Below are positions 492-19,437 of a stretch of 50,519 nucleotides of DNA, piece by piece; position 1 is the stretch's first letter; the number at the start of each line of letters is the position of its first letter. Both the position numbers and the translations under genes were made by a program. Location: IMG/VR virus record IMGVR_UViG_3300020439_001565, positions 1 to 50,519 of that record. The stretch is one strand, 5' to 3'. The DNA comes from a virus. Below the pieces are notes generated by a model. The model did no database searches, was not told the origin of the DNA, and was given only the letters and a program-made list of their open reading frames with translations.

Positions 492-541
492 TTTGAAAAA
501 GGGTTAGGTAAGAGTTCGGGGGACGAACCAGTTAGAATATT

Positions 542-622
542 CCCGTGCCACCCTCCGGCGCGGGTATGAGAGACGTGTTTTATACTCCCTAGAGGTCTCG
601 GTTTACGGAGAGTTGTACAACT
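542..622 (-). other. Structured psbA leader: hairpin and 12-bp palindrome
   Basis: The psbA leader (492-653) has no reading frame. It holds a strong hairpin (542-549 pairs with 557-564, 8 bp including one G-T) whose loop reads GGAGGGT on the minus strand, so a ribosome-binding-like motif is displayed about 60 nt before the ATG. A perfect 12-bp palindrome, AGTTGTACAACT, lies at 611-622. Structured psbA leaders (PhotoRC motifs) are known in marine cyanobacteria and cyanophages; whether this is one of them needs a covariance search. Confidence 0.5.
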
Positions 623-653
623 TAACGGAACTTTACATCCCGCGTCGTTGATT

Positions 654-3143: not shown

Positions 3144-3162
3144 TTTTTAAATCTCCTTGTAG

Positions 3163-3169
3163 TTATTTA
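3163..3169 (-). promoter_or_regulatory. CTAAATA box, probable late-promoter variant
   Basis: Minus-strand CTAAATA (3169-3163) lies 19 nt before the ATG at 3143, just after the stop of the preceding gene. It differs from the T4 late box by one base and recurs upstream of other genes in this window. Confidence 0.4.
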
Positions 3170-6100: not shown

Positions 6101-6409
6101 GATCTCAATATTTGGTCTACCAGTCAGAGAATAAGCAGTAGCAGCTGCAGTTGCAGTGGTTGCAGATCCAGCAGTGGTTGCATTCGTCGCAATTCCAGCG
6201 GTGTGTGCGTAACCAGCTACAGTTGCAAAACCAGCAGTGCCTGCATAAGCACCAGCGTCAGCAGTTATATTTGTTAAGTTAGATCCATCACCATGAAACT
6301 CTAGAGCCGTAACGATTCCAGAGAACTCAGCATTACCAGTAACACCTAAAACTGTATGGGTATCAGTATAACTAGAAATACCGATCTTGAGATGTCTCTT
6401 CCTTTCCAT
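3167..6409 (-). CDS. Giant fibre-like virion protein with GDGS-L repeats
   Basis: A 1080-residue protein opening MERKRHLKIGISSYTD. It is built from repeated modules: ATxFxGDGSxLTxI hairpins, TAGIATYA-type 9-residue repeats, NLNVSGISTFxGxI strands and KKLETTGVGVTVxG blocks, as in tail-fibre or long-appendage proteins of marine T4-like phages. It ends in a glycine/valine-rich segment (SAGVVTVTSGAAAGIS) likely to be beta-structured. It lies between two small accessory structural genes. Trimeric fibre folding is inferred from the repeats; receptor specificity cannot be read. Confidence 0.75.
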   Translation of the reverse strand: MERKRHLKIGISSYTDTHTVLGVTGNAEFSGIVTALEFHGDGSNLTNITADAGAYAGTAGFATVAGYAHTAGIATNATTAGSATTATAAATAYSLTGRPNIEITNLDVAGIATFKEDIYFGDNDQIIMGDGSDLKIYHDGSNSYVEDAGTGALIMKGTTLRFRSPDDEKIINAHQNGSVDLFFDDSKKFETTQSGIIVTGIATADGFVGPLEGNVTGDLTGDVNAGIITAVSGNFTGNVTIGGTLTYEDVTNVDSIGIVTARDGIVVNTRGIHVLSGITTLQDLDAQDLNIRNITGSAATFTDSVSLYDNDRIYLGTSQEMEIFHGTLGNSFFTSTKPLYIKYGQSGQTHEMFIQNDSITAAKFTDDASVELYYNGGKKLETVGGGVTITGDLRVSGVVTATRFESTSSGTPSIDSPNNLDLNAINVAVSTDMSVGRNLTVVGFVSAANFYGDGSGLVNVPAQSYVGNAGVATYAQTAGIATYAQTAGIATVAENLTGDPDISITSATAGGTILRTGAAGTVRLDRGDGNFTGVVTATTFYGDFQGSGSGITGITATYANTAGVSTVSQGLTGTPDIEVANLNVSGISTFTGNIQLNRSFSNEGITFKRANVYKGGIEVGTSVIQIASNGTQDLMLGSNNLGGTSGDVVIASVGATSGSNDYSTGWGRMAVFTGFGTAQLWHQNVKKFETTGIGVTVFGNTETQTLNVTGVSTFNDKVAIGTDVASNSGKLHFATADGYINRSSISVGNPITDYGLYVVDSTSNANSNLHQNYVRQTTNGNYSVSVGAANAFRVSNNDGSSSSAGNPGGMQDSDVAFVVNPDTSTELRYNYDKKLETTGVGATVFGTTETQQLNVSGVSTFSGDIGSSLIPASDDTYDLGAPNDEWRNLYIDGLANVDQFLCSSSATFQGNVEINSLNISGVSTFLDGGNGEIKVFESSGDPIIQKSGGGLLHFRTNNGFDIEDNSGNLFARYGSGGGGVGDGVSLYHNVVERVATTNAGVVVTGILTATSFRGDGSQLSGVLAASEAGISVQDDQSAVGVSTTIDFGSGLSVSPVSAGVVTVTSGAAAGISPVIAGMIF
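4941..4994 (-). repeat. Perfect tandem 27-nt repeat inside fibre gene
   Basis: Two identical adjacent 27-nt copies (4941-4967, 4968-4994) encode two 9-residue YAQTAGIAT units. Exact identity inside an otherwise diverged repeat field indicates a recent duplication and possible length variation of the fibre. Confidence 0.85.
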
Positions 6410-6417
6410 TTAGCCCC

Positions 6418-6759
6418 TCAGATTAATGTTTCAAGGACAGTTACTAAAACATGTAGTCCAGTTGATGTGCTTGTACCGACTTTAAACTGATCTCCAGGAA
6501 CAAGAGTTAATTTTCCTGTAGTCAGTTCAATTGTTTCATGAGATGCACATGCTTTTTGATATGAAGCATATGTTGTTACTGCGACTCCTGATACTTCTCT
6601 GACGTGTTGTAGAGTAACGTCTTCTGATGCACCCGTTGTGTTTGTCGCTTGGGCGCATAGTACAACTGCGTTATAACCAGATGGTGCGGTATATATTCCT
6701 ACTGGAGAGCTTCCTGCGTTGACACCAACTGTCACATAATTATTAAGTGCTAATGCCAT
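6418..6759 (-). CDS. Small fibre-associated structural protein, unknown
   Basis: A 113-residue protein opening MALALNNYVTVGVNAG, with predicted beta strands (YTAPSGYNAVVLCAQA, LTLVPGDQFKVGTS) and no signal peptide or membrane helix. The last part, GLHVLVTVLETLI, is hydrophobic and resembles the end of a beta-sandwich. It lies between two giant fibre genes, 8 nt upstream of the 3167-6409 gene, which suggests co-expression. The fold may match the 121-residue neighbour at 2778-3143. Function not recognised. Confidence 0.6.
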   Translation of the reverse strand: MALALNNYVTVGVNAGSSPVGIYTAPSGYNAVVLCAQATNTTGASEDVTLQHVREVSGVAVTTYASYQKACASHETIELTTGKLTLVPGDQFKVGTSTSTGLHVLVTVLETLI

Positions 6760-6762
6760 TTT

Positions 6763-9700
6763 TTAGAAACCCCCGAGAGATAAAATATATGGTGTCATAG
6801 TTGAAACTAAACTCTTGCTGTACGATTGTCCTGAAATTCTTCCTTCGACTTGGTTGATAATAACACCGTCACCGATCTTAAAGTTACCCGCTTGGTTAGT
6901 ACTGGTGTAGATTACCAGTCCACCGTTTCTAGAATCTGTTTCATTTTCAGGGATTGGTGGAATGCCACCACTATATGGAATTGCTCTAGAAATATCATTT
7001 CCAGATCCAACAAATTCAAATGAGTGGGAAGTTGCAAGTATTCTACTTTGTTTAAAGAAGTTTACTACCGTACCAACTCCAACGGCGAAAGGCACATTTT
7101 CAGTCAAGGTTACCAAAGAAACATCATTAGTAATTGCCGTTGCTTTTGAAATTGTATAGTAAGTCGGAGTAAGTTCAGCCTTACCTACTGCAGTATTTAT
7201 GCCTGACTGGGGAGTAGAGAAGGTGACAGTAGGAGGATTTACATATCCTCTACCATTTGAAATCATATCAACACCAACGATCTTTCCGTTTTCTAGAACA
7301 GGAATACCAGTTGCTTTGACACCCCAATCAGTCTCTGGATCAGAGAACACAACGGATGGTTGTGCGGTATAAGTTCCTTGATCACTGATGTTGACTTTCT
7401 TGACAGTATTATAGAGTCTATCAAAGTAAATAACCTGACCATCATGTGGTCTAGGAACGTCAAGTGCAGCATCTCCACCACTTACATAGGTGTGTGCAAT
7501 AGTGGAAACACCAACGTTAACAGTGAATACTGTACTAGCCATGGATACTGCAGGTAACTCGTTTGCACCCACGATATTTCCAGCACCCAGTCTAGTGGTA
7601 AGAATACCAACCAGATTATCAATAAAGGAACGAGGTCCAGAACAAGATGCAGGATCAGTATTGGAACCAGTACCAGGATCAGGAAGAATAGTTAGATCCT
7701 TGAATGGAAGTTGATTAGTAATTGCTTCCTTCATCATGACTCTTGCAGAACTAAATCCTACAAGAGTTTGTGGAACTTCACCAGCAACACCATTAGAGAT
7801 TAGTGCAGATCCATCAAGAGTAAAGTATCTCTTTGTTGCTTCAAGAGTATTCTTTGAAGTCTTGTCGCGGATATCCTTAGTGACTGCATCGATAACGTGA
7901 CCGATATCTCTCTTACATTTCTCAGGATCTGGTTGGACAAATGAAGGATATGCAACACCAATCGCAGCATAGGATTGATCAATGATATGTTGTCTATTAC
8001 CAGCAATCAGAGTATGTCCATCATAATAGGTTCCCTCTGCGACTGCTTCTGCATTGAAAACATATCCCAAATTACCAGAAGGATAAATTGAGTTACCCTC
8101 ATTGCAACTAAAAGTCATATTATTAATAGTTACACCAGCACCAATCAAGAACTTATGTGCTCCATCAGTTTCAACTCTCAACATACCAGTAGTATGTGTA
8201 TAACCTGCATTGACTACATTTAATGTTGGATTGTTTAGATTGATGGCAAATACGTCAGTATTTTCTGCAGCTGCAGTAGTAACAACACCAGTATAACTTA
8301 GATCACTAACACCATCTGCAACCAATCCAAAATCACCAAATGATGAGTTGGAGTTTGAAAGATCACATGCACCACCAGTCCCTGTAAAGATTGCAGTTTC
8401 ACAACAAATTGTGAACATAGAAACCAACTGGGCATATGCATTATTGGTAATAGAACAACCAATACCACCCTGATTATACTGAGTGTAGGAGTCAACAACC
8501 ATGGACTTCGTTGGTCCAATAGAGAGATCACCATCAATCTTCATCCCGATATTATTAGGAATGAAGTTAGTGCAGTTCTGAACATATGTAGATCTACTAA
8601 TATATCTTCTCTCTACAGGATCAAATGCAACAACTGCTTTACCTGGATTTTGAGTTCCAGTAAAAGACATCTCAGCGATGTAGTTTGCATTACCAACATG
8701 GAAGATATCTTGATCTGCATTTAGGGGACTGATCGTAGTCTCTCTAATAGATGCACCGATTACACTAACCTCATTAGGAAGAACAATAGGATTGTCTTCA
8801 ATGTAAGAACCTGGTGCAACTCTTACAACAGTATCAGATAGACCTTCGTCAATAATTTTTTGAACTGCAGCCTTAATGGTTAGTTTTGGTTTAGTCAGTT
8901 CACCAGAGTTGGAATCATTACCATCCTTGGCAACATAAAGAATACTCTTCTCACCTTGAATGTCTGCATCGTTTGCAAAGGTTGCAATACCAGCAGTAGA
9001 AGCATAGGTTGCGATGCCAGCAGTAGCAGCATAGGTCGCGGTCCCAGCAACACCAGATATACTCTGAGCCGTGGTTGCTACAGAAGCAATACCAGCAGTA
9101 GCAGCATAGGTCGCGACAGATGCATTAGTTGCAATACCAGCAGTGGTAGCATAGGTCGCGGCAGATGCATTAGTTGCAATACCAGCAGTGGTAGCAAACG
9201 TTGAAATGCCGGCAACGAAAGCATAATTTACTGTGTCAGCTGAAGGTGCGGTAACCGTAGAGAATACAAACTTCTTAGTCGCATGATCGTATCTCAGATA
9301 CATGCCATCATATGCACTTGCATTAGTAGCAATACCCACAATATCATCAAGATATTGCAAACGGGTTTCACCGCCACCACCAAGTGTTGATAGTTGCTCT
9401 TGAACTCTATTGACAAACAAACTATAGTGTTTGTTCAACTGGTCAATGGTTACAAACTCAGTTTTAGAAAGAGGATCATTCGGATCCAGAGGTCCGTTCA
9501 AAAGACCTTCATTAAGAAGTTTTCCTTTCTTGGTTTCTTCTTTTAGTGCCTGATAGGACTCACTAATTTCATTTAGTTTCTTACCAAGAGCAGAGATATC
9601 AAAATCTTTCTTAGATAAAATTCCAAATACTTCTTCTCTCAGTTCTTTAATGGCAATGCCATGTTCTCTACTATATTTCTTATCAATACTTTCTTTTACC

Positions 9701-10128
9701 TGATGAACTCTAGAGTCCAAAAGGTTTCTAACTTCTTTAACTGTGGAAGAAGTGGTATCTTTAAAGTTTTCAGTTAATACTTCAACTTGTTCAAAGATCT
9801 TCTTCTCAGCTTGTTTAATCTTTGATTCGACTCTGAGATCTGTTTGATGGACAGTCTTCTTATACTTAGGAAGTTTATCATTTACAAGATCATCTACTAG
9901 ATCATATAAACCAACAATGTCTTCCCGATACTCCTGCAGTTGTTTTTTATTTGCAGAGAGAATTTGTTCCTGAATATTTTTAAAAGCACTATCAATAATC
10001 AACAATGAAGGTGCTACTCCCTCATGTGGTGATTCGATGGTCTGTTCTTCCATCGGAATATCAACTACCTCAGGAGCTTTAATCTCCTTGTTTTCACCAT
10101 TTAGTTCGGACGGTTTTTTTAGTGCCAC
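6763..10128 (-). CDS. Coiled-coil and beta-helix fibre/structural protein, GTG start
   Basis: About 1121 residues. Residues about 35-225 are charged coiled coil (KQAEKKIFEQVEVL, KELREEVFGIL). Then come TAGIATNAS repeats (about 285-385) and a parallel beta-helix-type region starting AKDGNDSNSGELTKPKLTIK, like pectate-lyase/pre-neck-appendage folds, followed by a large C-terminal region ending PYILSLGGF. I chose GTG 10128 (VALKKPSEL) because GGAG lies 9 nt before it; an upstream ATG at 10155 lacks such a site and adds an unlike sequence. It is first in the fibre operon, with a composite promoter 35 nt upstream. Likely a tail-fibre or tailspike-type protein; no enzyme residues are evident. Confidence 0.72.
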   Translation of the reverse strand: MALKKPSELNGENKEIKAPEVVDIPMEEQTIESPHEGVAPSLLIIDSAFKNIQEQILSANKKQLQEYREDIVGLYDLVDDLVNDKLPKYKKTVHQTDLRVESKIKQAEKKIFEQVEVLTENFKDTTSSTVKEVRNLLDSRVHQVKESIDKKYSREHGIAIKELREEVFGILSKKDFDISALGKKLNEISESYQALKEETKKGKLLNEGLLNGPLDPNDPLSKTEFVTIDQLNKHYSLFVNRVQEQLSTLGGGGETRLQYLDDIVGIATNASAYDGMYLRYDHATKKFVFSTVTAPSADTVNYAFVAGISTFATTAGIATNASAATYATTAGIATNASVATYAATAGIASVATTAQSISGVAGTATYAATAGIATYASTAGIATFANDADIQGEKSILYVAKDGNDSNSGELTKPKLTIKAAVQKIIDEGLSDTVVRVAPGSYIEDNPIVLPNEVSVIGASIRETTISPLNADQDIFHVGNANYIAEMSFTGTQNPGKAVVAFDPVERRYISRSTYVQNCTNFIPNNIGMKIDGDLSIGPTKSMVVDSYTQYNQGGIGCSITNNAYAQLVSMFTICCETAIFTGTGGACDLSNSNSSFGDFGLVADGVSDLSYTGVVTTAAAENTDVFAINLNNPTLNVVNAGYTHTTGMLRVETDGAHKFLIGAGVTINNMTFSCNEGNSIYPSGNLGYVFNAEAVAEGTYYDGHTLIAGNRQHIIDQSYAAIGVAYPSFVQPDPEKCKRDIGHVIDAVTKDIRDKTSKNTLEATKRYFTLDGSALISNGVAGEVPQTLVGFSSARVMMKEAITNQLPFKDLTILPDPGTGSNTDPASCSGPRSFIDNLVGILTTRLGAGNIVGANELPAVSMASTVFTVNVGVSTIAHTYVSGGDAALDVPRPHDGQVIYFDRLYNTVKKVNISDQGTYTAQPSVVFSDPETDWGVKATGIPVLENGKIVGVDMISNGRGYVNPPTVTFSTPQSGINTAVGKAELTPTYYTISKATAITNDVSLVTLTENVPFAVGVGTVVNFFKQSRILATSHSFEFVGSGNDISRAIPYSGGIPPIPENETDSRNGGLVIYTSTNQAGNFKIGDGVIINQVEGRISGQSYSKSLVSTMTPYILSLGGF
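9119..9196 (-). repeat. 45-nt period repeat with two identical 33-nt copies
   Basis: 33-nt identical segments at 9119-9151 and 9164-9196 encode the TAGIATNAS units of the fibre protein. A similar but diverged unit lies just downstream of the coiled coil. The array probably sets fibre length. Confidence 0.8.
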
Positions 10129-10162
10129 TAATAATATCTCCGTACATGAGGTCAATATTTAA

Positions 10163-10196
10163 TATTTATATTACCGTCATAATAGATCATTGTCAA
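10163..10196 (-). promoter_or_regulatory. Composite promoter: sigma70 boxes plus late box
   Basis: Minus strand TTGACA (10196-10191), 17-bp spacer, TAATAT (10173-10168), overlapped by TATAAATA (10170-10163). The stop codon TGA of the preceding gene (10195-10193) forms part of the -35 hexamer. It drives the fibre gene starting at 10128. Confidence 0.75.
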
Positions 10197-10831
10197 CAAA
10201 AGTGAACTAACTTATCAAGCAATTTCTTATAATTACCATCTGACTTAATTATCAAACGTTTCATTTCACACCATAAATCAGACTCGTCGTAGATCTTACC
10301 AGACCAAGGACCCAGAGGATGAGGTTCCTGGTCAAACTCTATCCCCATGACGTAAGTTCTTCTAGGCCACATAGTTCCCATACATGATAATACAGAAACT
10401 TGATCGACTTCCTTTCCTTTTCGTACTAGGTCAATTAGATTTGATAATTTGCCACCAGACTTTGGTTGAAATATGACTCTATCTATAGGAGTCTGCGGTA
10501 AGAAATGAGATAGGATCAATGTTCTACACTTTCCAGTTTCTCTCATGGGAGAGGTAGGATCAGAAGTTTTATACATTGGATACATACATCCTCCTTCGGA
10601 AAGTTCTTTATACAAAATAGGGAGAACAGTGAAGTGTGACTGGGGATATTCTATAGAATTATTATCATATTTGCCTTGCATTACATCTTCTACATCAGAA
10701 ACAAAAGTATCAAAAGATGATTGTTCATCAATAGAATCTACCAGAGTATTCTCCATATATTCAAACTGGGCAATATCATCAAACGGTTTTAATGTTTCAA
10801 ACGTTACCGCATCATTATATAAAATATTCAT
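10193..10831 (-). CDS. Paralogue array member 7 (last, most diverged), unknown
   Basis: A 212-residue protein, the last of seven tandem related genes. It keeps the family layout: an N-terminal beta segment with FEYME, the middle block SHFTVLPILYKELSEGG, then CRTLILSHFLP in place of the GRxLIxxRYFP seen in the others, and a C-terminal YKKLLDKLVHF. The YGxG loop present in the siblings is replaced by SGGKLS, so it may have lost an activity or interaction. A ribosome site (GGAG) precedes ATG 10831, and the gene overlaps the next one upstream by 17 nt. No known domain recognised. Confidence 0.75.
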   Translation of the reverse strand: MNILYNDAVTFETLKPFDDIAQFEYMENTLVDSIDEQSSFDTFVSDVEDVMQGKYDNNSIEYPQSHFTVLPILYKELSEGGCMYPMYKTSDPTSPMRETGKCRTLILSHFLPQTPIDRVIFQPKSGGKLSNLIDLVRKGKEVDQVSVLSCMGTMWPRRTYVMGIEFDQEPHPLGPWSGKIYDESDLWCEMKRLIIKSDGNYKKLLDKLVHFC

Positions 10832-11531
10832 CTTTCTCCGACTTTGGTCTGTCTAAACTATTGATCATACCCTTTACTATTTTATCAAAACAATCTTCTG
10901 GATCATCTAATATAATCTTTCTCTGTTTTTCCCACAAATAATCAGACACAGTATCTTCAATATATTGATTGGGTTTCCACCACTTACGTTCATCTATATA
11001 GTCGTGCCCAAAACAAATCTCTTTAATGTAATAGTATGCACCACATGGTTCTAAAAACACTATGACATCTTCAATAAAATCCTTGTCTTTCCAATAGTCA
11101 CTATTCCGTATCAAATCAATTACTTTTTCAACAACTTCTGTAGTACCAATACCGTACTCTTCCGAAGATCTAATAATATCAACTTTACAATCAGGAAAGT
11201 ATCTACCTATTACTAGTGCTCTACCAAATCCAGTAGAATACTTATCGAAAGGATCATCACAGTCCATAAATGTAAAGATAGGAAATCTAACCATACCTTC
11301 AGATAAAATGTCTCTATAAAGATAAGGCAACTTGGTGAAGTTTCTGGGTTTATCTTTACCACTCCTAACTCTTTCCAAATGATAATTAAAATCATCAATA
11401 GCATATTGATGGAAATCTATTGGAATATCAACCTGACAATCATACTTAAAATTACAGATCATCAAAGGTCTTATCTTGGTTGATTTTATTTCTCTACCAC
11501 TAGTGTCTTCAAAGTATCTTATCCTCTGCAT
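10815..11531 (-). CDS. Paralogue array member 6, unknown
   Basis: A 238-residue protein opening MQRIRYFEDTSGREIKSTKI. It has the full family signature: YFxDxTG at the N-terminus, NFKYDCQVDI, FTKLPYLYRDILSEG, FGRALVIGRYFP, SSEEYGIGTTEVVEKVIDLI, YWKDKDFIEDVIVFL and a C-terminal DCFDKIVKGMINSLD. It is closest to member 3 (13092-13814), sharing KSTRIKPLMIANFEYE-like text, so these two probably arose by a later duplication. No signal peptide or membrane segment; likely cytoplasmic. Function not recognised. Confidence 0.8.
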   Translation of the reverse strand: MQRIRYFEDTSGREIKSTKIRPLMICNFKYDCQVDIPIDFHQYAIDDFNYHLERVRSGKDKPRNFTKLPYLYRDILSEGMVRFPIFTFMDCDDPFDKYSTGFGRALVIGRYFPDCKVDIIRSSEEYGIGTTEVVEKVIDLIRNSDYWKDKDFIEDVIVFLEPCGAYYYIKEICFGHDYIDERKWWKPNQYIEDTVSDYLWEKQRKIILDDPEDCFDKIVKGMINSLDRPKSEKDEYFI

Positions 11532-12244
11532 AATATAATATCGTCCAAGAGTTGCAAATAATCTTCATCTGTTTCTAACTTAGAAAGTTTTATCTTTGAT
11601 TTTATTTCCAACCAGTCATCGAAAGTACAGACTTTTTCCAGAAAAGGATCTAGTTGTCTAGTTGTTGGTCTCTTTAGTCTTTCAGACAAATATTCTTTAC
11701 TCACAAAATTAACACTCCTAATTTGCCACATGTCCTGAAAGGGAAGTAATGACACAACATATTCTTTATCAAAATCATTCCCACTTCCAGCAAGACTCAA
11801 ATATTTTCTTACTAACTCTTCACCACCAACACCATACTCTTTACCATGCGTAGTATAATCATGAACAAGATATGGAAAATACCTATACCCAATCAACGTT
11901 CTACCATGCCCACATGAAAGAAGTCTTTCCTTATTGGGATCAATAACAAATGGTTGTTTGAACTTACCCTCCTCCACAAGGACATCATATAAATGAATCA
12001 ATTTTGTTATCAACCAATATCCCTCTCTGAATTCTATAAAAGCATCATCATATGGTTTATTCCATGCAGGATTGAAAGGAGCAGACTTGAAGTGTTTGAT
12101 ATCTCTCTTAAAGATAGAAAGAGATTCTTGAAAGAGTCTTTCGGATATCGTATCGTGTTCATACTTATATCCAACTACCTTTAACTGATCACCAAGGTTT
12201 AACGACTCTCCAGTTTTATCATTAAAGTATAATATAGGTTTCAT
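11519..12244 (-). CDS. Paralogue array member 5, unknown
   Basis: About 241 residues. I chose the ATG at 12244, which overlaps the upstream stop as ATGA (an ATG nine bases earlier is possible). Family blocks are seen: MKPILYFNDKTGESLN, VGYKYEHDTI, HGRTLIGYRYFP, HGKEYGVGGEELVRKYLSL, YVVSLLPFQDMWQIRSVNF and YLSERLKRPTTRQLDPFLEK. The strongly conserved FP...YGxGxxE core suggests one fold with variable surfaces. No catalytic motif of a known family recognised. Confidence 0.78.
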   Translation of the reverse strand: MKPILYFNDKTGESLNLGDQLKVVGYKYEHDTISERLFQESLSIFKRDIKHFKSAPFNPAWNKPYDDAFIEFREGYWLITKLIHLYDVLVEEGKFKQPFVIDPNKERLLSCGHGRTLIGYRYFPYLVHDYTTHGKEYGVGGEELVRKYLSLAGSGNDFDKEYVVSLLPFQDMWQIRSVNFVSKEYLSERLKRPTTRQLDPFLEKVCTFDDWLEIKSKIKLSKLETDEDYLQLLDDIILCRG

Positions 12245-13095
12245 ATCTTCCAAGTATAGACACTCTCAAAATGTTTTTTGTATCCTCTAACCATATTATC
12301 TAATAATTCCCAATAGTCTTCATCAGTTTCCAATGTAGATCCATCAATAATATTTTTAAGAATCTTCCAGTTAGTTAGTCTAGAAGTATTTTCTATAAAC
12401 CTTTCAGGTCTGTAGTGCTTATAGTTTTCCATGTATTCAGGATCAACTAACTCTACTGTCTTTAGAGTGTACAACATTCTATAAGTATAGTCGTCATAAA
12501 AGTCATCCAATCCACCAAAGAATCTATTTTCGCCCACAGAACATAAGTTAACTATGATTTTATAATCAGATATATCTTTACCATTCCAATATGAATTTTC
12601 AAATAAGTTATCCAAAAATTCTTCCATATCGTCATCACCACCAATACCTTCCGATATATCGCTACTAACAATATCAATGGTTTGTTCTGGAAAATATCTA
12701 CCTAAGATTAAACTCCTACCATTTCCAGATAACATTGGCGTATGTTTGAGTCCATAGTCATTAGAAGTCAACCACTTCTCCTGATACGGAGATTCCATAA
12801 TGGGATACTGAAATGGTTCTCCTCCTTCAGCAGTTAGGTATAGGAAAGGAAGTATAGTGAAAACATCGAAAGCTATTCTACCATCGTCATAATCACGCAT
12901 ACCATATCCACGACCACCGTTTAAGTATCTATCAACATCATATTTGAAAAGATCAAACGCAGTTGCAAGTCTATCTGGTGAAATTTTTTCATTCTTATAG
13001 TACTTAAACTTTACAAGATTTAAGTTAAAGAGACCATCATCAAATTCAATCAACTGACCATCGTCAGCATCAAAGTAAGTTACATTGTATTTCAT
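12241..13095 (-). CDS. Paralogue array member 4, unknown
   Basis: A 284-residue protein, longer than most siblings because of insertions near GYGMRDYDDGRIA and the region after the core. The family core is intact: VTYFDADDGQLIEF, FTILPFLYLTAEGG, GNGRSLILGRYFP, SSDISEGIGGDDDMEEFL (an acidic version of the YGxGxxE loop), YWNGKDISDYKIIVNL and ERFIENTSRLTNWKILKNI. Overlaps its upstream neighbour by 4 nt (ATGA), so translation is probably coupled. Unknown function. Confidence 0.8.
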   Translation of the reverse strand: MKYNVTYFDADDGQLIEFDDGLFNLNLVKFKYYKNEKISPDRLATAFDLFKYDVDRYLNGGRGYGMRDYDDGRIAFDVFTILPFLYLTAEGGEPFQYPIMESPYQEKWLTSNDYGLKHTPMLSGNGRSLILGRYFPEQTIDIVSSDISEGIGGDDDMEEFLDNLFENSYWNGKDISDYKIIVNLCSVGENRFFGGLDDFYDDYTYRMLYTLKTVELVDPEYMENYKHYRPERFIENTSRLTNWKILKNIIDGSTLETDEDYWELLDNMVRGYKKHFESVYTWKI

Positions 13096-13814
13096 TTTGT
13101 ATAATACTTGATATTATTGGATTGAAGTCCATCAAGGTTATTTAACATGCCTCTCACAACCATATCAAAACAATTTGTGGGGTCTTCTTTTATTGCCTGT
13201 TCCTGCAATTCCCACAACCCATCATTGATTGTTGATTCTACAAATTCTTGAGGTCTATAATTCTTTCTTCTCTCTAGATAGTCATCCGAAGCGAAACCTA
13301 TTTCTTTAAGATAATAATACCAAGTATGTTTACCCAACATGACAATAACTGTTTCGGAAACTGATTTATCTTTCCAATACATATTATTCCTAATCAAATC
13401 TATTGCTTTTTCTGCAATTTCAATTGATCCTACACCAAAATCTTGAGATGACTTTATATGATCTACCCTAATGTCTGGAAAGTACTTTCGTGCAACTAGT
13501 GCTCTACCATATCCCACACCATATCGCACATTTATATCTGGATGATCACAAAATTCATAGAATGGAAACCTCATCATCCCATCTTTTTGAAACTCTTTAT
13601 AGAGATACGGCAACTTTGTAAAGATCCTAGGCTTAGGATTACCATTAAGTACTCTATTTACATGATACTTAATGTCATCTATGGCACAACTATGAAACTC
13701 TTCAGATATTTTAACTTGAGATTCATACTCAAAATTTGCAATCATTAGAGGTTTGATCCTGGTAGATTTTAATTCTTTTCCACTACCATCATCAAAGTAC
13801 TTTATCTTTAACAT
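13092..13814 (-). CDS. Paralogue array member 3, unknown
   Basis: A 240-residue protein opening MLKIKYFDDGSGKELKSTRI, the clearest copy of the family N-terminus. It has FTKLPYLYKEFQKDG, YGRALVARKYFP, SSQDFGVGSIEIAEKAIDLI, YWKDKSVSETVIVML, YYLKEIGFASDDYLERRKNY and a C-terminal FDMVVRGMLNNLD. It is the nearest relative of member 6. Overlaps member 2 by 23 nt, a longer overlap than ATGA that still preserves both frames. No domain recognised. Confidence 0.8.
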   Translation of the reverse strand: MLKIKYFDDGSGKELKSTRIKPLMIANFEYESQVKISEEFHSCAIDDIKYHVNRVLNGNPKPRIFTKLPYLYKEFQKDGMMRFPFYEFCDHPDINVRYGVGYGRALVARKYFPDIRVDHIKSSQDFGVGSIEIAEKAIDLIRNNMYWKDKSVSETVIVMLGKHTWYYYLKEIGFASDDYLERRKNYRPQEFVESTINDGLWELQEQAIKEDPTNCFDMVVRGMLNNLDGLQSNNIKYYTK

Positions 13815-14535
13815 AATCTAAGTTCTTAAAAACAATGTCATTGAGAATCTCAGTGTAATATTTACCAGATTTCAAAATCAACTTTATCCTACTCCATAAT
13901 TTCATATCCATAGATCTTTCGATGAATGGTTCTGGTCTAAAATTTCTATAGGAGTTCAAGTAGTTTTCATCGGTAAAACTCAAATCCTTAATTACATACA
14001 AATCTTTTTTATACTTTGAAAGTAAGACAACAGCAATAGGATATTTTACATGACCCATCCAATATCTATTATTAGAAATATCATTAATTAGTTTTCTGAT
14101 TATTTCTTCTCCACCAGTACCAAACTGTTCTGAGTGTGTAGTAATATCCAAAGGAACATCATGGGCAAAAGTAGAAGCTATAAGAGTTCTACCCAATCCA
14201 GAAATCATTTTCCTACTTTTTTTCCTATCTGGAAAAACATAAGCAGGATATTTAAAAGGTAGTTTCTTTACACACAAATCATAATAAAGATATGGCAGTT
14301 TTGTGAATACGTCGTGAGGAAAAATATATTTTTCACTGAATATATACTCTTCTTCTGATAAAGTAGTATCTTCTTCTAAAAACTCATCCACATCCGCAGT
14401 AAAGACGTTGAAGGCATCTTGAGCCATTTGGTCTGTTGGTAATATGACTTCATACTTATAGTCCACGATGGTAGGAATATCCATAGGCATTCCAGTTGCA
14501 TCATCAAAACATAATATTTTAAAGTCTCCAGTCAT
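13792..14535 (-). CDS. Paralogue array member 2, unknown
   Basis: A 247-residue protein opening MTGDFKILCFDDATGMPMDI. Family blocks: VDYKYEVILPTD, FTKLPYLYYDLCVKK, GLGRTLIASTFAHD (core changed from RYFP), HSEQFGTGGEEIIRKLINDI, YWMGHVKYPIAVVLL and FRPEPFIERSMDMKLWSRI. The altered FP motif separates it from members 3-6. No transmembrane segment. It is co-transcribed with its siblings; the function is unknown. Confidence 0.8.
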   Translation of the reverse strand: MTGDFKILCFDDATGMPMDIPTIVDYKYEVILPTDQMAQDAFNVFTADVDEFLEEDTTLSEEEYIFSEKYIFPHDVFTKLPYLYYDLCVKKLPFKYPAYVFPDRKKSRKMISGLGRTLIASTFAHDVPLDITTHSEQFGTGGEEIIRKLINDISNNRYWMGHVKYPIAVVLLSKYKKDLYVIKDLSFTDENYLNSYRNFRPEPFIERSMDMKLWSRIKLILKSGKYYTEILNDIVFKNLDYVKDKVL

Positions 14536-15373
14536 AAATTGATTCTACGTAGTCTAAGTTATCGAAAATGAATTTGTCTAAAAGATCTATGTCTTCCCCT
14601 TCAAATTCTTCGTATATTTTATGTAATCTTTTATTTAGATTGTTTTGAATGGTCTTACTTAAGAAGTAGTCTGGTTTTAATCTGGGTTCTATATGTTTCC
14701 CCGCATCTTTCTGAGGCACAAAGTCTATCAGTTTAATAAACCAAACATTTTTTTCATTCCATCTATACTCCTGTTCATCAAAAGGAACCTCAATACCATC
14801 TGTATGTGTCCACTTAGGATCTGGGTATGGATGTAAGTTAACAAATGCTACCATGTCGGACACATCTTTGTCTTTCCACCATGAAGTTTGTTTAACGTAT
14901 TCAACATATTCTTCGATAACTTCACCTCTACCTGTTCCATATTGTAAGGAAAAATGGGCAAGTGGATAATTACTTTCTGGGAAATATCGATTCTGAATAA
15001 AAAGTCTACCAGATCCTGTTTGAAGATCCCATCTCTCTGGATTAGTTTTACTATATCCTTTCCTATCAATGATATTTAAATCTATTGCAATGTATGGGTA
15101 CATGAAACATCCATGTTTCTTATAATCCAAATACTGATATGGAAGTTTGGCTATAGATCTAAGTTTCTCGTCACCTTCTTTGGTTCCTGGATTAAAAAAT
15201 ATATTGGGATCATCATTATGAATTGATCTTATATTTTTCAAGTTAGATTTATAACTATCTCTAACCATTTTTTCTGACATGACATCCAAAGTCACAGGAT
15301 TAAATCCCATGACCCTATTAGGTGGATGCTCAAAATTTATACCAGTCTCATCAACGATATATTTTATTTGCAT
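14519..15373 (-). CDS. Paralogue array member 1, unknown
   Basis: A 284-residue protein and the first of the seven. It has MQIKYIVDETGINFEHPP, IAKLPYQYLDYKKHG, SGRLFIQNRYFP, FSLQYGTGRGEVIEEYVEYV, WWKDKDVSDMVAFVNL and a C-terminal DLLDKFIFDNLDYVES. It overlaps the GT8-like gene upstream by 23 nt, tying the array physically and probably translationally to a sugar-transfer gene and glgP. The family might act on or sense carbohydrate, but that is inference only. Confidence 0.8.
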   Translation of the reverse strand: MQIKYIVDETGINFEHPPNRVMGFNPVTLDVMSEKMVRDSYKSNLKNIRSIHNDDPNIFFNPGTKEGDEKLRSIAKLPYQYLDYKKHGCFMYPYIAIDLNIIDRKGYSKTNPERWDLQTGSGRLFIQNRYFPESNYPLAHFSLQYGTGRGEVIEEYVEYVKQTSWWKDKDVSDMVAFVNLHPYPDPKWTHTDGIEVPFDEQEYRWNEKNVWFIKLIDFVPQKDAGKHIEPRLKPDYFLSKTIQNNLNKRLHKIYEEFEGEDIDLLDKFIFDNLDYVESIYDWRL

Positions 15374-16034
15374 CTAGACACTCCTCATAATATTGATTCC
15401 ACAAACCAGAGTAATCACAGTCTTTAGTCTCTTCAAACCATGGTCCACCATCCGTATAGTGCAATGCAAAAGGATCATCGTAAGCCCACAGATCATCATA
15501 ATAACCAACCAACCAATTCCACCGTTCAGGTAGTTCACCTAGATCTTTATCTGCAATCCAGTCAAACTGATGCAACTCTGCAGGAGTCATACCATTGACA
15601 TCCAAAAACTTATGAGATGGATGTTCGTTATTGAATAAGATCAAAGAACTCCAGTTCTTTCTAGGATATGGAAACTGAATTTGACCATCCATCTTCGTAT
15701 TGCTCTTTGGTTTATAGTCATGTTTGACTACCATTGCAGCATACTTAGGATCAGCCATATCAAATAAATCCTTAACATCCTCAATGAATAAGAAGTCACA
15801 ATCACAATATAGTGACCAACCCTTAAAATTTGATAGTGCAGGTGTTAAGAATCTAGTTAGAGAGAACTCAGTAGACGCATTCTCATCCACAGGTCTATCG
15901 TAAAGACCAAGAAGTCTTACGTTTCGTTGTTCAATTGGTTTTACTATTGCTTCAGGTCTGTGTTTGCGGATGCTGTAATCACAGACCTTGAATGCCCAGT
16001 GTTCACGGGTATCATACCCAACCCAAATGTTCAT
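15351..16034 (-). CDS. GT8-like glycosyltransferase
   Basis: About 227 residues, starting at the ATG that overlaps the glgP stop as ATGA (16034). It opens MNIWVGYDTREHWAFKVCDYS, then has FSLTRFLTPAL and GWSLYCDCDFLFIEDV, which carries a DxD-type nucleotide-sugar/metal site (DCD), and later WNWLVGYYD and the terminal HYTDGGPWF, typical of GT8-type cytoplasmic transferases. GT8 includes glycogenin and galactosyltransferases; the acceptor here is unknown. Its place directly after glycogen phosphorylase is suggestive but no proof of a shared substrate. Confidence 0.75.
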   Translation of the reverse strand: MNIWVGYDTREHWAFKVCDYSIRKHRPEAIVKPIEQRNVRLLGLYDRPVDENASTEFSLTRFLTPALSNFKGWSLYCDCDFLFIEDVKDLFDMADPKYAAMVVKHDYKPKSNTKMDGQIQFPYPRKNWSSLILFNNEHPSHKFLDVNGMTPAELHQFDWIADKDLGELPERWNWLVGYYDDLWAYDDPFALHYTDGGPWFEETKDCDYSGLWNQYYEECLDANKIYR

Positions 16035-18421
16035 ACTTTCCAAATGTTGTCACAGTAATCTTGAATCGATCTATCGGATGAGAAGAATCCAGATCTAGCA
16101 ATGTTCATCAGAGATCTACGATTCCATTCCTCTCTATTACCCCAGGTGTTATCTACAACGTTCTGGGCACGGCAATAATCTGCAAAGTCTGCACAGACAC
16201 AGAATGGATCACTCTGCATCAGATTATCAATGATAGAAACAAATGCGTTCTTATCACCATTAGAGAAGTGACCAGACTTGATTAATTCAATGGCCTCGAA
16301 CAATCCTGAACTCATGTGTTCTTTAGGATCATAACCATTCTTCCATAGATCACCGATCTCTTCTTCAGTATTACCAAAGAGGAAGAAGTTCTCTTCACCT
16401 ACCAAGTCACGAATCTCTACGTTTGCACCATCGAGTGTACCAATAGTCAAAGCACCATTCATCTGGAACTTCATATTACCAGTACCAGATGCTTCCTTAC
16501 CTGCAGTTGAGATCTGTTCAGAGAGGTCTGCAGCAGGATAAACTTTCTCACCCAACTTCACACTATAGTTAGGTAAGAATACAACACGCAACTTTCCATC
16601 CATATCGGGATCTGAGTTGACCGTCTCCGCAAGATTACAAATGAAACGAATAATCTCCTTCGCCATATAGTAACCAGGTGCGGCTTTACCACCAAAGATT
16701 ACTGTACGTGGAACAACATAATCGTCTTTATGATTTTTGATATACAAATACCGAGACACAATCCATAGAGCAAGGAGATGCTGTCGTTTGTATTCATGAA
16801 TCCTCTTTACTTGTACATCAAACATACTTGACGGATCAACAGAGATGCCAAGTGTCTTCTGTATGTATTGTGCAAGTTTATGTTTACCGATTAGTTTTGT
16901 CGCACCAATCTTCTCAAGAACAATAGGATCATCAGCAAACTTCTCCAGATCCCCTAGACGAGTCATGTCAGTAACCCATCCATCGCCAACATAATCGGTG
17001 AGAACTTCTGCAAGTGCAGGGTTAGAATCTGCCAACCAACGGCGTGGTGTCACACCATTAGTCACATTGGTAAACTTATGAGGCCAAAGATCATAGAACT
17101 CGGGCATCAGATTCTTAGTGATAAGATCTGAGTGAAGTGCAGCAACACCATTGACATGATGAGATCCTACTGTTGCAAGATGGGCCATGCGAACAGATCT
17201 ATTACCTGTTTCATCAATGATAGAAAGTTTACGGAGAGTTTCCTCGTCTCCTGGATAATGCATTCTAACAATCTGAAGGAATCTAGAGTTGATTTCATAG
17301 ATGATCTCTAGATGTCTGGGTAAAAGTTTTTCAAACAGACTTACACTCCACTTCTCCAGTGCCTCTGGGAGTAGTGTGTGGTTAGTATATGCAATCGACT
17401 TACTTGTAATATCCCATGCAAGATCCCACTCCATGTGGTGATCATCCATAAGAAGTCTCATCAGTTCTGCAACCGCAACTGATGGATGAGTGTCATTCAA
17501 CTGAACTTGATAATAGTTGTAGAACTCTTCGAGAGGTAGATTACGTTCTTTGAGACTTCTAATCATATCTTGAAGAGAGGCACTAACAAAGAAGAACTGT
17601 TGTTTCAGTCTAAGTTCTTTACCCTGATCAGTACCATCATTAGGATACAGAACCTTAGAGATAGTCTCTGTGGTTACACTATTCTCTACTGATCCCAGAT
17701 AGTCTCCCTGGTTGAATGCTTTGAAGTCAAACACATCAATCGCGTCTGCTCTCCAGAGTCTGATCTTAGCACAACTATCTACTTTATATCCTGCTTGCAG
17801 AACATCATAAGGAACTGCAACTACATGGTGTTGAGGTGCCCAACGAACTCTATGATCACCATCATCGAACTCATAGTGTTCCACCTTTCCACCGAATCCA
17901 ACCATAACAGATTCATCTGGATAACAAACTTCCCATGGCCAATCTCCATGTAACCAATTATCGGTAACTTCTACCTGTTGGTTGTCTCGGATTGTTTGTT
18001 TGAAAATACCGTACTTATATCTAATACCATATCCAGTGGCAGGAACTCTCAGAGTTGCCATGGATTCCATGTAACATGCAGCAAGTCTACCCAGACCACC
18101 ATTTCCAAGTCCAGGTTCTTCAGACAATTCTAGAATCTCATCCAGATCATATCCAAATTGACCAACTGCTGCAGCAGCTTCTTTGCGAATATCCAAATTG
18201 AGTAGATTGTTACTCAACTGCGGTCCAATAAGGAACTCTGCAGACAGATATGCAACTTCCTTTCTGTGTGATTTTTCAACTAAATGATTATCAATCATTC
18301 GATCTCTAACAGCATAACAAAGTGCCATGTAGACATCGTGTGCAGAGGCAGACTCAGGACGTTTTCCCAGTGTATACAGAAGACGTTCCTTTACTCCATC
18401 CGTAATTGTGTTGGTTAACAT
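16031..18421 (-). CDS. glgP: Glycogen phosphorylase
   Basis: A 796-residue alpha-glucan phosphorylase, which releases glucose-1-phosphate from glycogen using phosphate. Full-length homology to bacterial GlgP is visible: LYTLGKRPESASAHDVY, YLSAEFLIGPQLSNNLLNL, EEPGLGNGGLGRLAACY, TNHTLLPEALEKW, FDVQVKRIHEYKRQ, FGGKAAPGY and the signature EASGTGNMKFQMNGAL with the pyridoxal-phosphate lysine at residue 651. The start at 18421 matches family N-termini; an upstream in-frame ATG at 18472 would read through the terminator hairpin. It overlaps the GT8 gene by 4 nt, so it belongs to the phage operon and is not a contaminant. It appears intact. Probably an auxiliary gene feeding the pentose phosphate pathway or nucleotide synthesis. 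Confidence 0.95.
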   Translation of the reverse strand: MLTNTITDGVKERLLYTLGKRPESASAHDVYMALCYAVRDRMIDNHLVEKSHRKEVAYLSAEFLIGPQLSNNLLNLDIRKEAAAAVGQFGYDLDEILELSEEPGLGNGGLGRLAACYMESMATLRVPATGYGIRYKYGIFKQTIRDNQQVEVTDNWLHGDWPWEVCYPDESVMVGFGGKVEHYEFDDGDHRVRWAPQHHVVAVPYDVLQAGYKVDSCAKIRLWRADAIDVFDFKAFNQGDYLGSVENSVTTETISKVLYPNDGTDQGKELRLKQQFFFVSASLQDMIRSLKERNLPLEEFYNYYQVQLNDTHPSVAVAELMRLLMDDHHMEWDLAWDITSKSIAYTNHTLLPEALEKWSVSLFEKLLPRHLEIIYEINSRFLQIVRMHYPGDEETLRKLSIIDETGNRSVRMAHLATVGSHHVNGVAALHSDLITKNLMPEFYDLWPHKFTNVTNGVTPRRWLADSNPALAEVLTDYVGDGWVTDMTRLGDLEKFADDPIVLEKIGATKLIGKHKLAQYIQKTLGISVDPSSMFDVQVKRIHEYKRQHLLALWIVSRYLYIKNHKDDYVVPRTVIFGGKAAPGYYMAKEIIRFICNLAETVNSDPDMDGKLRVVFLPNYSVKLGEKVYPAADLSEQISTAGKEASGTGNMKFQMNGALTIGTLDGANVEIRDLVGEENFFLFGNTEEEIGDLWKNGYDPKEHMSSGLFEAIELIKSGHFSNGDKNAFVSIIDNLMQSDPFCVCADFADYCRAQNVVDNTWGNREEWNRRSLMNIARSGFFSSDRSIQDYCDNIWKV

Positions 18422-18432
18422 AATAATCCCAT

Positions 18433-18457
18433 AAAAAATGAGGAGGTTTCCCTCCTC
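18433..18457 (-). terminator. Rho-independent terminator before glgP
   Basis: Minus strand: 7-bp GC stem GAGGAGG/CCTCCTC with a GAAA loop, followed by a T-run ending 12 nt before the glgP ATG. It follows the stop (18462) of the small hli operon. The stem also contains a GGAGG sequence. Confidence 0.8.
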
Positions 18458-18458
18458 G

Positions 18459-18465
18459 TATTTAG
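18459..18465 (-). promoter_or_regulatory. CTAAATA box upstream of glgP
   Basis: Minus-strand CTAAATA lies 37 nt before ATG 18421. Its TAA is also the stop codon of the 48-residue upstream gene. If active, transcription would start next to or in the terminator hairpin, giving glgP mRNA a 5' hairpin and its own late supply. Confidence 0.35.
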
Positions 18466-18608
18466 ATACCATCTAGGACAGGTGACATCAGACCACTGTC
18501 AGGGCCTCCATCATCGTCATCATTTCCTGACGCGAATGCGGCAACTAGTACCCATCCACTCAGAAAAGAAAGACTAAAAACTAAGATATTTCCTACTATG
18601 TCACTCAT
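18462..18608 (-). CDS. 48-residue membrane protein of hli operon
   Basis: Reads MSDIVGNILVFSLSFLSGWV onwards: one hydrophobic segment (LVFSLSFLSGWVLVAAFA), an acidic GNDDDDGGPD stretch, then a short tail. Last gene of the hli operon, overlapping the previous gene as ATGAGTGA. Probably a thylakoid-associated small protein; identity not recognised. Confidence 0.75.
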   Translation of the reverse strand: MSDIVGNILVFSLSFLSGWVLVAAFASGNDDDDGGPDSGLMSPVLDGI

Positions 18609-18681
18609 CACCACTCTGCGAAATCATTGCTCCCACACCGAATGTCAAAAACATTACTACTGCGAGATATCCCATCACCAT
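18601..18681 (-). CDS. 26-residue single-helix membrane peptide
   Basis: Reads MVMGYLAVVMFLTFGVGAM then ISQSGDE: almost entirely one membrane helix. Start at 18681 (or 18675, MGYLAV) overlaps the hli stop by 7 nt, and the stop overlaps the next start. Small size and position suggest a photosystem-type small subunit, but no family is recognised. Confidence 0.6.
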   Translation of the reverse strand: MVMGYLAVVMFLTFGVGAMISQSGDE

Positions 18682-18782
18682 ACACCAGGAATGATTTGTC
18701 CTGTTGCTGCATAAGATCCCATTGCTGCGACTACACCGATCATTGCGGCCCAACCGTTGATGCGTTCTGCTCTTTCAGTCAT
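18675..18782 (-). CDS. hli: High-light-inducible protein, short form
   Basis: A 35-residue Hli/Scp protein (single-helix chlorophyll-binding stress protein acting at photosystem II in thylakoids). The motif is AERINGWAAMIGVVAAMGSY, matching the ExxNGxxAMxG signature with a Trp replacing the usual Arg after NG. A usable ribosome site (GGAG, about 9 nt upstream) precedes it, and it overlaps both neighbours. Shorter than the second hli gene at 19164, with almost no N-terminal tail. Confidence 0.9.
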   Translation of the reverse strand: MTERAERINGWAAMIGVVAAMGSYAATGQIIPGVW

Positions 18783-18927
18783 TGTTTTTCTCCAAAGTTT
18801 TGTTAAAGATTACGACTCTACCGTTTTCGTGAGTGAAAATAAGTTCATCATCGTGCCCCCAGCAGAGTTCCTCGTATAGGGCATTGAGTCTTCGCATGTC
18901 TTCCCACAGTGCGTTCTCATTGGTCAT
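18775..18927 (-). CDS. 50-residue conserved-type phage protein, unknown
   Basis: Reads MTNENALWEDMRRLNALYEE onwards, ending NKTLEKNND. Soluble, acidic, with an amphipathic N-terminal helix and a beta segment (ELIFTHENGRVVIF). Its stop overlaps the short hli start (ATGACTGA). The gene has no known catalytic motif. Confidence 0.75.
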   Translation of the reverse strand: MTNENALWEDMRRLNALYEELCWGHDDELIFTHENGRVVIFNKTLEKNND

Positions 18928-18942
18928 GGTATTAAATCTTTT

Positions 18943-19164
18943 TCAACTATCTAGTTGAAGAAAAAACTTAGTGTTGTCACTTGGTGTGTTTTCGTAGATA
19001 GAAGAATCACCATATGTTTTGTGGTCTTTGTATCCAACCATTCGACCCTTAGTATTTTGAAGGGCGGGTTGGAATACAATAAAGAAAAATACTCCTGGGG
19101 CACCAATCAGAAGGGCACCACCAATAACATAATAAGTCAGAATTTCAAGAAGAGAGTTTTCCAT
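18943..19164 (-). CDS. 73-residue membrane protein next to hli
   Basis: One transmembrane segment near the N-terminus (YYVIGGALLIGAPGVFFFIV), then a polar tail with KGRMVGYKDHKTYGDSSIYE. The start overlaps the hli stop as TGATG, so translation is coupled. Probably inserted in the thylakoid membrane; not matched to a named photosystem subunit. Confidence 0.7.
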   Translation of the reverse strand: MENSLLEILTYYVIGGALLIGAPGVFFFIVFQPALQNTKGRMVGYKDHKTYGDSSIYENTPSDNTKFFLQLDS

Positions 19165-19382
19165 CAGATACCAAACATTCCAAAGAAGAACAGACTACCA
19201 GTGGTAGCATAAGAAATAACAGCGGCTGCAAATCCCAACATGGCTGTACGACCATTCAGTTTTTCTGCACGTTCTGCGTAGGTCTCATAACCATAGCGTT
19301 CTGCTGCGGTTTGATCTACATACATGCGGGGTTCGCGGGCAAATAGATTTTGTTGTCCACGCTCATTAGTAGTAACAGTCAT
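19164..19382 (-). CDS. hli: High-light-inducible protein, long form
   Basis: A 72-residue Hli protein with a 35-residue polar N-terminal tail and the chlorophyll-binding helix AERAEKLNGRTAMLGFAAAV, complete with the canonical ExxNGRxAMLG. It protects photosystem II against photodamage during infection. First gene of the operon, with a consensus host-type promoter 25 nt upstream. Confidence 0.95.
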   Translation of the reverse strand: MTVTTNERGQQNLFAREPRMYVDQTAAERYGYETYAERAEKLNGRTAMLGFAAAVISYATTGSLFFFGMFGI

Positions 19383-19407
19383 TTGCTTTGTAAAGATTTA
19401 CAACATA

Positions 19408-19437
19408 ATTATATAGTAATGTAACAATCTTTGTCAA
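19408..19437 (-). promoter_or_regulatory. Host-type sigma70 promoter of the hli operon
   Basis: Minus strand TTGACA (19437-19432), 18-bp spacer, TATAAT (19413-19408): consensus in both hexamers, so expression soon after infection is likely. The TGA stop (19436-19434) of the preceding glycosyltransferase gene is embedded in the -35 box. Confidence 0.85.

Follow-up and report, generated by a model that had tools for sequence, protein, structure and literature searches.

The window, a 50,519-nucleotide stretch of DNA from a marine cyanobacterial virus (IMG/VR record IMGVR_UViG_3300020439_001565), carries a tandem array of seven paralogous genes whose products, judging from predicted structures and conserved motifs, probably form an extremely divergent branch of the ParB/sulfiredoxin (ParB/Srx) superfamily. 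This assignment is new, as an earlier note, made from the letters of the window, had described the array without a fold. The whole explanation that we propose, in which these divergent ParB/Srx paralogues perform nucleoside triphosphate (NTP)-dependent glycan tailoring, has about an even chance of being correct.

The array and its predicted fold

The array consists of seven consecutive minus-strand open reading frames (ORFs) of 212-284 residues, running from 15373 to 10193 and numbered m1 to m7 in the order of transcription, which overlap their successors by 17, 23, 4, 13, 13 and 17 nt. The ORFs, the overlaps of 4-23 nt and the homology all confirm the earlier description as seven tandem overlapping paralogues.

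14519-15373, minus strand: m1, 284 residues, first member of the array, by homology and ORF; GxxR motif is GSGR
13792-14535, minus strand: m2, 247 residues; GLGR
13092-13814, minus strand: m3, 240 residues; GYGR; AlphaFold2 model m0d05a2ffd9a9
13563-13622, minus strand: segment of m3 placed by model secondary structure, invariance and register
13503-13514, minus strand: m3 residues 101-104 (GYGR), putative Box II P motif GxxR, as defined in the consulted part of PMC12704722
12241-13095, minus strand: m4, 284 residues; GNGR
11519-12253, minus strand: m5, 244 residues, TTG start; GHGR
10815-11531, minus strand: m6, 238 residues, paralogue of m3, no counterpart in L016 (see below); GFGR
10193-10831, minus strand: m7, 212 residues, terminal member, no YGxG loop; GKCR; AlphaFold2 model m7a439babdb3e
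10523-10534, minus strand: m7 residues 100-103 (GKCR), GxxR by alignment

The family comprises 19 members, with seven in the window, six in L016 (15.6 kb of a 238,937-base virus contig), five in Synechococcus phage S-SCSM2R (PQ898602, 244,186 bases) and one in L034 (a 6.6-kb contig of another virus); these counts leave out a copy in L015 that is 99% identical to member S-SCSM2R_40. With m6 as query, six of the seven window members, itself included, are matched with E ≤ 8e-10, and the closest paralogue is m3 (51% identity), so that the earlier statement that members 3 and 6 are closest holds in transcription order. The m6 query misses m7, which is linked to the family through its alignment with the other members; m7 matches an S-SCSM2R member with an E value of 2e-18, and its L016 counterpart matches the family profile, which contains m7, with 4e-51. 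The alignment also agrees that m7 is without the YGxG loop. The motif blocks quoted in the earlier note are present in the family in a looser form, as only P, G and R are invariant among the 19 members (P84, G101 and R104 in m3 numbering).

The ParB/Srx guess was drawn from these motifs, before any fold result. The earlier note had suggested structure prediction of all seven proteins; two were modelled, and both rank ParB/Srx first, with Z of at most 3.6. The AlphaFold2 models were built with 15 family rows, most of which are shared by m3 (pLDDT 90.4, pTM 0.86) and m7 (pLDDT 84.6, pTM 0.82), so the two are not fully independent. Both predicted models have the order helix (Box I), P loop, strand, GxxR, helix and strand, with H62-78, P84, E85-88, GxxR 101-104, H102-111 and E117-122 in m3, and H60-78, P85, E86-89, GxxR 100-103, H101-109 and E116-128 in m7 (H, helix; E, strand). 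In VIA-align, ParB/Srx titles fill 9 of the 10 entry rows for m3 (ParB-N, sulfiredoxin, ParB, Noc, PadC and SbnI; Z 3.6-2.4; 889 chains compared, 15 with Z ≥ 2) and 12 of the 14 for m7 (sulfiredoxin, ParB, KorB, SerK and PadC; Z 3.4-2.3; 648 chains, 16 with Z ≥ 2), where the two unrelated rows come last. VIA-align re-examines Foldseek candidates, and families missing from its rows are not excluded. The argument for the fold is that two models select one superfamily, each single match being weak.

The conserved residues point in the same direction. Among 28 ParB_N domains from ten alphaproteobacterial genomes (31 matches, less one without a locus and two, L221 and L227, that were wrongly extracted), four columns are invariant, namely P, G, R and N (N118), and the invariant P, G and R of the phage family follow the same order. 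The spacing from L to P is 12 residues in the family and 12-14 in ParB, that from P to G is 12-18 in 15 of the 19 members (26-27 in the other four) against 12-17, and that from G to R is 3 in both. GxxR is present in all 19 members; in the consulted part of a 2025 survey it is called the P motif, which binds phosphate, and exchange of its R for A served as the negative control of NTP-binding assays (PMC12704722). The Box III P motif, ENxxR in ParB, has no counterpart, since no conserved NxxR was found in the family; the same part of the survey describes Box III as often missing or divergent in orphan ParB/Srx proteins (PMC12704722).

A profile-profile comparison, also suggested earlier, agrees with ParB in register without deciding the matter: hhalign aligned the expected boxes of the family and ParB with a score of 24.2 (P-value 0.003), which none of 200 column shuffles attained (best 19.2; reversed alignments, 11.3 and 10.0), and the best score of the family against 26 unrelated families, which are all those with at least 6 non-redundant members, was lower, 20.5. 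Pfam found no helix-turn-helix (HTH), C-terminal dimerisation or other DNA-binding domain in 12 members, and the genes listed beside them belong to glycan synthesis, photosynthesis and the virion, parA not being among them.

Several results weigh against the ParB/Srx reading. All the structural Z values are below 5; by the yardstick given with the tool, the top Z of a model that lacks a clear match is typically 7-8 when a larger set of chains is compared, which makes 3.6 a weak value. The best Foldseek E values are 0.48 in the PDB for m3 (pyruvate kinase), and 0.39 (m3) and 0.10 (m7) in BFVD. No member matches Pfam, PHROG or NCBIfam significantly (best E 0.064, 0.011 and 0.014), the best Pfam and NCBIfam values among 12 members coming from unrelated families, with one member each; a search of PDB sequences with a 12-member profile gave a single chance match, with an E value of 0.68. 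PF02195 has no match with E ≤ 1 in six records, which include the genomes of the window, L016 and S-SCSM2R. Of 14 control genomes, 11 match it, nine over the cut-off, and the family is therefore not filed in PF02195 itself. The hhalign probability is 8-17%, and 0.2% with the 10 chromosomal ParBs alone. Two of the 26 unrelated neighbour families outscore the family against ParB (32.3 and 32.0), and a third reaches 20.4; clusters 1-3 of this comparison overlap in membership and are not independent. By chance, 212 of 1,820 unrelated ORFs fit the loose pattern L...P...GxxR (against 17 of the 19 members), and a conserved P...GxxR is present in one of the 26 unrelated families. Clusters 1-3, which lie next to GT8 genes, were considered as ParB-like and rejected, because they carry a TDRPIxVRPHP-like stretch and look, by eye, like GT-B-type transferases; they are a warning about hhalign scores.

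The low Z values, the insignificant Foldseek results, the lack of a Pfam match, the two unrelated profiles that outscore the family and the alignment rows shared by the models would all suit an unrelated fold whose alpha/beta core came to resemble that of ParB/Srx by convergence. We consider this unlikely, given that the models of two members rank the superfamily first, and that the P, G and R invariant in the family are also among the four invariant residues of ParB_N, with order and similar spacing kept. An extremely divergent ParB/Srx domain is the reading that we retain for the fold.

Relatives, duplication and selection

The earlier note had proposed looking for the same array in related phages, and it is found in L016, where phosphorylase, GT8 and six members follow one another in the order of the window, and, partly scattered, in S-SCSM2R. 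In the latter phage two members lie straight after the phosphorylase and glycosyltransferase genes, two lie farther on, each directly 3' of a gene annotated as a 2-oxoglutarate (2OG) oxygenase, and the fifth, at 28627, overlaps a SPASM radical SAM gene; the L015 copy is of this radical-SAM-linked member. The single member of L034 overlaps a GT8-like gene that is 48% identical to that of the window.

Elsewhere the family is rare. A tblastn search of 50,697 phage records with six members, of which the window supplied three, S-SCSM2R two and L034 one, found S-SCSM2R as the sole significant record, one of the six queries also listing two matches with an E value of 9. A search of S-SCSM1, a cyanophage of the same host as S-SCSM2R (Synechococcus sp. 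WH7803 in the S-SCSM2R record), with the family profile was empty; the same profile found its match in L016. A search for related loci with the seven window members in a single alignment gave no conserved stretch. Scans of viral contigs with m6 alone, and with the S-SCSM2R member that precedes psbA, confirmed no relatives, and a motif scan of viral contigs gave six stretches, with members in L033 (the L016 contig) and L034. Genome contigs were scanned with six aligned members and one motif, at limited sensitivity; none of the 25 pattern hits was confirmed, and thus no cellular home was found. The earlier note had named as its refutation a known family with a standard copy number in all cyanophages; what we find is a rare family with a copy number that varies between seven and one. 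In the open-licence PMC literature we found no paper on S-SCSM2R, no mention of an array of such genes in the consulted titles and abstract openings on cyanophages and ParB, and no text joining ParB, sulfiredoxin, glycan and phage, and the consulted part of the S-SCSM1 paper describes glycan genes and no such family (PMC9602691).

In the family tree each of m1 to m5 pairs with its L016 counterpart (support at least 100/98), and m6, which the L016 array is without, is the sister of the m3 pair. A further group (support 80/84) unites the terminal m7 with the final member of the L016 array and with the S-SCSM2R member that precedes psbA. The paralogue groups are separated by long branches, and the deep order of the tree is weak, with some long branches possibly misplaced. 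The ratio of nonsynonymous to synonymous substitution rates (dN/dS; our own NG86 script) against the L016 orthologues is 0.10-0.16 for m1 to m5 and 0.29 for m7, while m3 against m6 gives 0.14, with saturated dS. Between the window and L016, m7 (10193-10831 against L016 14501-15172) is 54% identical and the other array members are 87-91% identical; the dS of m7 is also raised, to 1.3. On account of this low identity and raised dS, an exchange by recombination at the m7 end of the array is possible.

The proposal of the earlier note that duplication was retained under selection is supported by the purifying dN/dS of 0.10-0.29. As to selection for diversity, the long branches and the differing neighbours of the S-SCSM2R members fit divergent substrates, and a receptor or fibre role is weakened by the gene order described below.

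Gene neighbourhood and candidate function

The placement given earlier, between phosphorylase/GT8 and fibre genes, is correct, with PF00343 and the GT8-like gene on one side and tail-fibre proteins on the other. The neighbouring features of the window are the following:

15351-16043, minus strand: GT8-like glycosyltransferase, below the Pfam cut-off, strong match to PHROG 28018 (unknown function)
16031-18472, minus strand: carbohydrate (glycogen-type) phosphorylase, PF00343, 1043.6 bits; likely start at 18421, as in L016
19408-19437, minus strand: sigma-70-type promoter match (12/12), a consensus match only, 5' of a high-light-inducible-like ORF, the phosphorylase, GT8 and the array
19434-29715, minus strand: glycan biosynthesis cluster, with GT25, three GT11, a GT2-like gene, UDP-glucose dehydrogenase, NAD synthase, FkbM methyltransferase, GT10, two epimerase/dehydratases and an FtsJ-like ORF (below cut-off)
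29787-29888, minus strand: wcaG RNA, RF01761, 68 bits, directly 5' of the first glycan-cluster gene (29715)
691-10155, minus strand: stretch that separates the array from PhotoRC-II/psbA, most of its genes of tail-fibre type; absent from this place in L016 and S-SCSM2R
529-625, minus strand: PhotoRC-II RNA; the open-ended ORF after it (491-3) is read by eye as the start of psbA

The GT8-like gene overlaps m1 by 23 nt, and in four genomes (the window, L016, S-SCSM2R and L034) such a gene directly precedes and overlaps a family member. In S-SCSM2R the members are interleaved with genes annotated as KdsB, KdsA (on the opposite strand), an amidinotransferase and two 2OG oxygenases, of which KdsB (PF02348), KdsA (PF00793) and one oxygenase are supported by Pfam. 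The consulted part of PMC2864571 describes the wcaG RNA as a cis-regulatory motif found with exopolysaccharide or high-light genes, in cyanophages too. From these neighbours, namely the phosphorylase, glycosyltransferases, Kdo genes, oxygenases and wcaG RNA, a role of the family in glycan metabolism appears likely.

Three observations count on the other side. Pfam matches neither the amidinotransferase nor the second oxygenase of S-SCSM2R; around many GT8 relatives there is no family member; and an Asp is kept in 17 of the 19 members, with no other conserved candidate for a catalytic acid found in the family. Surveys of GT8 loci led us to reject a constant association of the GT8-like gene with a family member: in the first set of GT8-related loci the other eight of nine records (all but L016) have no member, and none was found at a significant E value in the best 80 of 573 viral or the best 80 of 81 bacterial GT8-like loci, where the absence is local only, many records being fragments or having short flanks. 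Viral contigs commonly carry GT8-like genes, with at least 573 such stretches counted. In one of these loci, L038, a single example, the gene before GT8 is nucleotidyltransferase-like and the gene after it has the TDRP stretch that is common to other locus proteins, as seen by eye.

In the explanation that we propose, the core of each protein would be a very divergent ParB/Srx domain, where the Box I helix with its P loop and the Box II GxxR form a nucleotide pocket, the Box III of ParB being missing. It seems likely that the members bind an NTP. They would act inside the cell, in a carbohydrate pathway directed by the phage and fed by glycogen, through the phosphorylase, and by the GT8-like transferase, and each paralogue would act on its own acceptor or position, a difference that we put forward as the reason for duplication with long divergence under purifying selection. 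The activity that we consider most probable is a tailoring of sugars or glycan intermediates that depends on NTP, for which phosphotransfer is a tentative first guess, made because the ParB/Srx-fold proteins without a clamp include phosphoryl-transfer enzymes: SerK is one (PMC5120207), and SbnI and Srx are cited as others without clamp domains (PMC12704722), according to the consulted parts of both sources. The structural resemblance to SerK and SbnI amounts to a Z of only 2.4-2.5. Still more speculative, and in our view unlikely, is the most specific form, with up to seven ParB/Srx-fold sugar or glycan phosphotransferases, each marking one position of a phage polysaccharide made from host glycogen; such use of the fold on glycans was not found in the literature consulted.

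The rival explanations are not all mutually exclusive, as some concern the fold and others the function. The members could be NTP-driven switches or scaffolds of the ParB/Srx fold, which control or dock a specific glycosyltransferase or oxygenase and are not enzymes. The family has no universally conserved catalytic acid, its S-SCSM2R members adjoin different enzymes, and the consulted part of the 2025 survey describes the fold as a switch in ParB and reports orphans that bind CTP, ATP or GTP (PMC12704722). Nothing in our data indicates protein-protein contacts, and SerK, SbnI and Srx are, in the parts of the sources consulted, enzymes without HTH and dimerisation domains (PMC12704722, PMC5120207), so we regard a switch, like convergence, as unlikely.

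An action on DNA (hypermodification, anti-restriction or nuclease), like that of GmrS or DndB, is less probable still. Oxygenases and glycosyltransferases occur also in DNA hypermodification. Among the BFVD matches of m7, which are weak and not significant, are a 'DNA-sulfur modification-associated' protein and an N-terminal GmrSD protein, and GmrS has been placed in the ParB/Srx fold with a DGQQR motif (PMC4619093, consulted in part). Against this, Pfam finds no DNA-binding domain, and the neighbours are surface-glycan genes, with KdsA and KdsB in S-SCSM2R and UDP-glucose dehydrogenase, GT11/GT10, epimerases and the wcaG RNA in the window.

A diversity system for host interaction, made of variable receptors, inhibitors or fibre-associated proteins, was among the suggestions of the earlier note, and would agree with the tandem duplication, the copy numbers of 7, 6, 5 and 1, the divergence of m7 and the fibre genes downstream of the array. 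In L016 and S-SCSM2R, however, the array end meets PhotoRC-II and psbA (psbA in L016 by eye) and has no fibre genes beside it; in the window m7 and PhotoRC-II/psbA are about 9.5 kb apart, and most of the genes between them are of fibre type. Because psbA follows the array directly in both relatives, the adjacency of array and fibre genes is likely a rearrangement of the window genome with no conserved link. The lone S-SCSM2R member at 28627 counts against the link being incidental, as about 1.4 kb downstream of it lies a gene for a long tail fibre. With P and GxxR kept in every member and purifying selection between relatives, we consider a diversity system for host interaction very improbable. 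Sulfiredoxin-like repair of hyperoxidised peroxiredoxin is almost certainly wrong, even with sulfiredoxin among the best structural matches and a peroxiredoxin gene in S-SCSM2R, since the catalytic Cys position of the Srx signature G-C-H-R (PMC4619093, consulted in part) has no Cys in any of the 19 members, 17 having none within GxxR and two having it one position later (GKCR and GVCR).

NTP-dependent glycan tailoring by ParB/Srx paralogues is thus the explanation that we carry forward. Should the fold assignment be right, it would offer a first clue to the function of seven proteins without a significant match in Pfam, PHROGs or NCBIfam, and it would extend ParB/Srx to a tandem-amplified branch in a carbohydrate locus, which a survey based on PF02195 would miss (compare PMC12704722, consulted in part). 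With seven natural variants of one small protein, the question of what cyanophage glycan clusters produce would then become directly testable.

Further features of the region were recorded. The 19437-19408 match is the sole 12/12 promoter match within 9900-19500. In the region as a whole, the 42 promoter-like matches are about as many as chance would give (40.4), and so are the 5 terminator-like ones (4.2); one terminator-like match (18457-18440) immediately precedes the probable start of the phosphorylase gene. The high-light-inducible-like ORF (19382-19164) matches PF00504 weakly, under the cut-off. The peroxiredoxin gene annotated in S-SCSM2R (L014 11875-12411) lies just 5' of the phosphorylase. 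A Nol-like carbamoyltransferase gene in the window (40333-41799, minus strand; PF02543/PF16861) is possibly a further glycan-tailoring gene. Two adjacent radical SAM/SPASM genes (30746-33327, minus strand), in both of which the SPASM match is N-terminal to the radical SAM domain, lie near a tRNA-Met (30469-30542) that ARAGORN finds and that is absent from the Rfam list. A tRNA-Ser(TGA) of ARAGORN at 35951-36039 (minus strand) has tRNA-Sec as its best Rfam model (47.3 against a gathering threshold of 47), and is probably an ordinary long-arm tRNA.

Comparison with known systems

The closest known domain is that of the ParB CTPases (ParB_N, PF02195), which is among the best structural neighbours and shares with the phage family a helix and loop ending in P, followed by GxxR, a helix and a strand, at similar spacing. 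The family differs from it in lacking a PF02195 match, Box III and an HTH or dimerisation domain, in having an added YGxG loop and C-terminal part, and in lying beside glycan genes instead of parA.

SerK (5x0j) and SbnI (5uje) have the ParB/Srx fold and a similar size, SbnI matching m3 and SerK matching m7, whereas there is no sequence match and the equivalent of their catalytic acid cannot be assigned in the family. Sulfiredoxin (6ky4, 3cyi) is the second-best structural match of m3 and the best of m7, and has a phosphate-binding G..R motif; the phage proteins differ from it in the missing catalytic Cys and are about twice as long. GmrS/DUF262 and the DGQHR types are likewise divergent members of the superfamily, GmrS having been placed there through fold recognition and a GxxR-type motif (PMC4619093, consulted in part). 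In contrast to these, the motif of the family is mostly G-x-G-R without a preceding Asp, no nuclease partner domain was detected, and the context is not one of restriction.

At the level of the locus, the nearest systems are the exopolysaccharide/lipopolysaccharide clusters of T4-like cyanophages (S-SCSM1 and P-SSM2 type), which comprise GDP-mannose enzymes, fucosyltransferases and other transferases in the consulted part of PMC9602691. Compared with S-SCSM1, where no family member was found, the window is set apart by its combination of a phosphorylase, a GT8-like gene and a ParB/Srx-like array.

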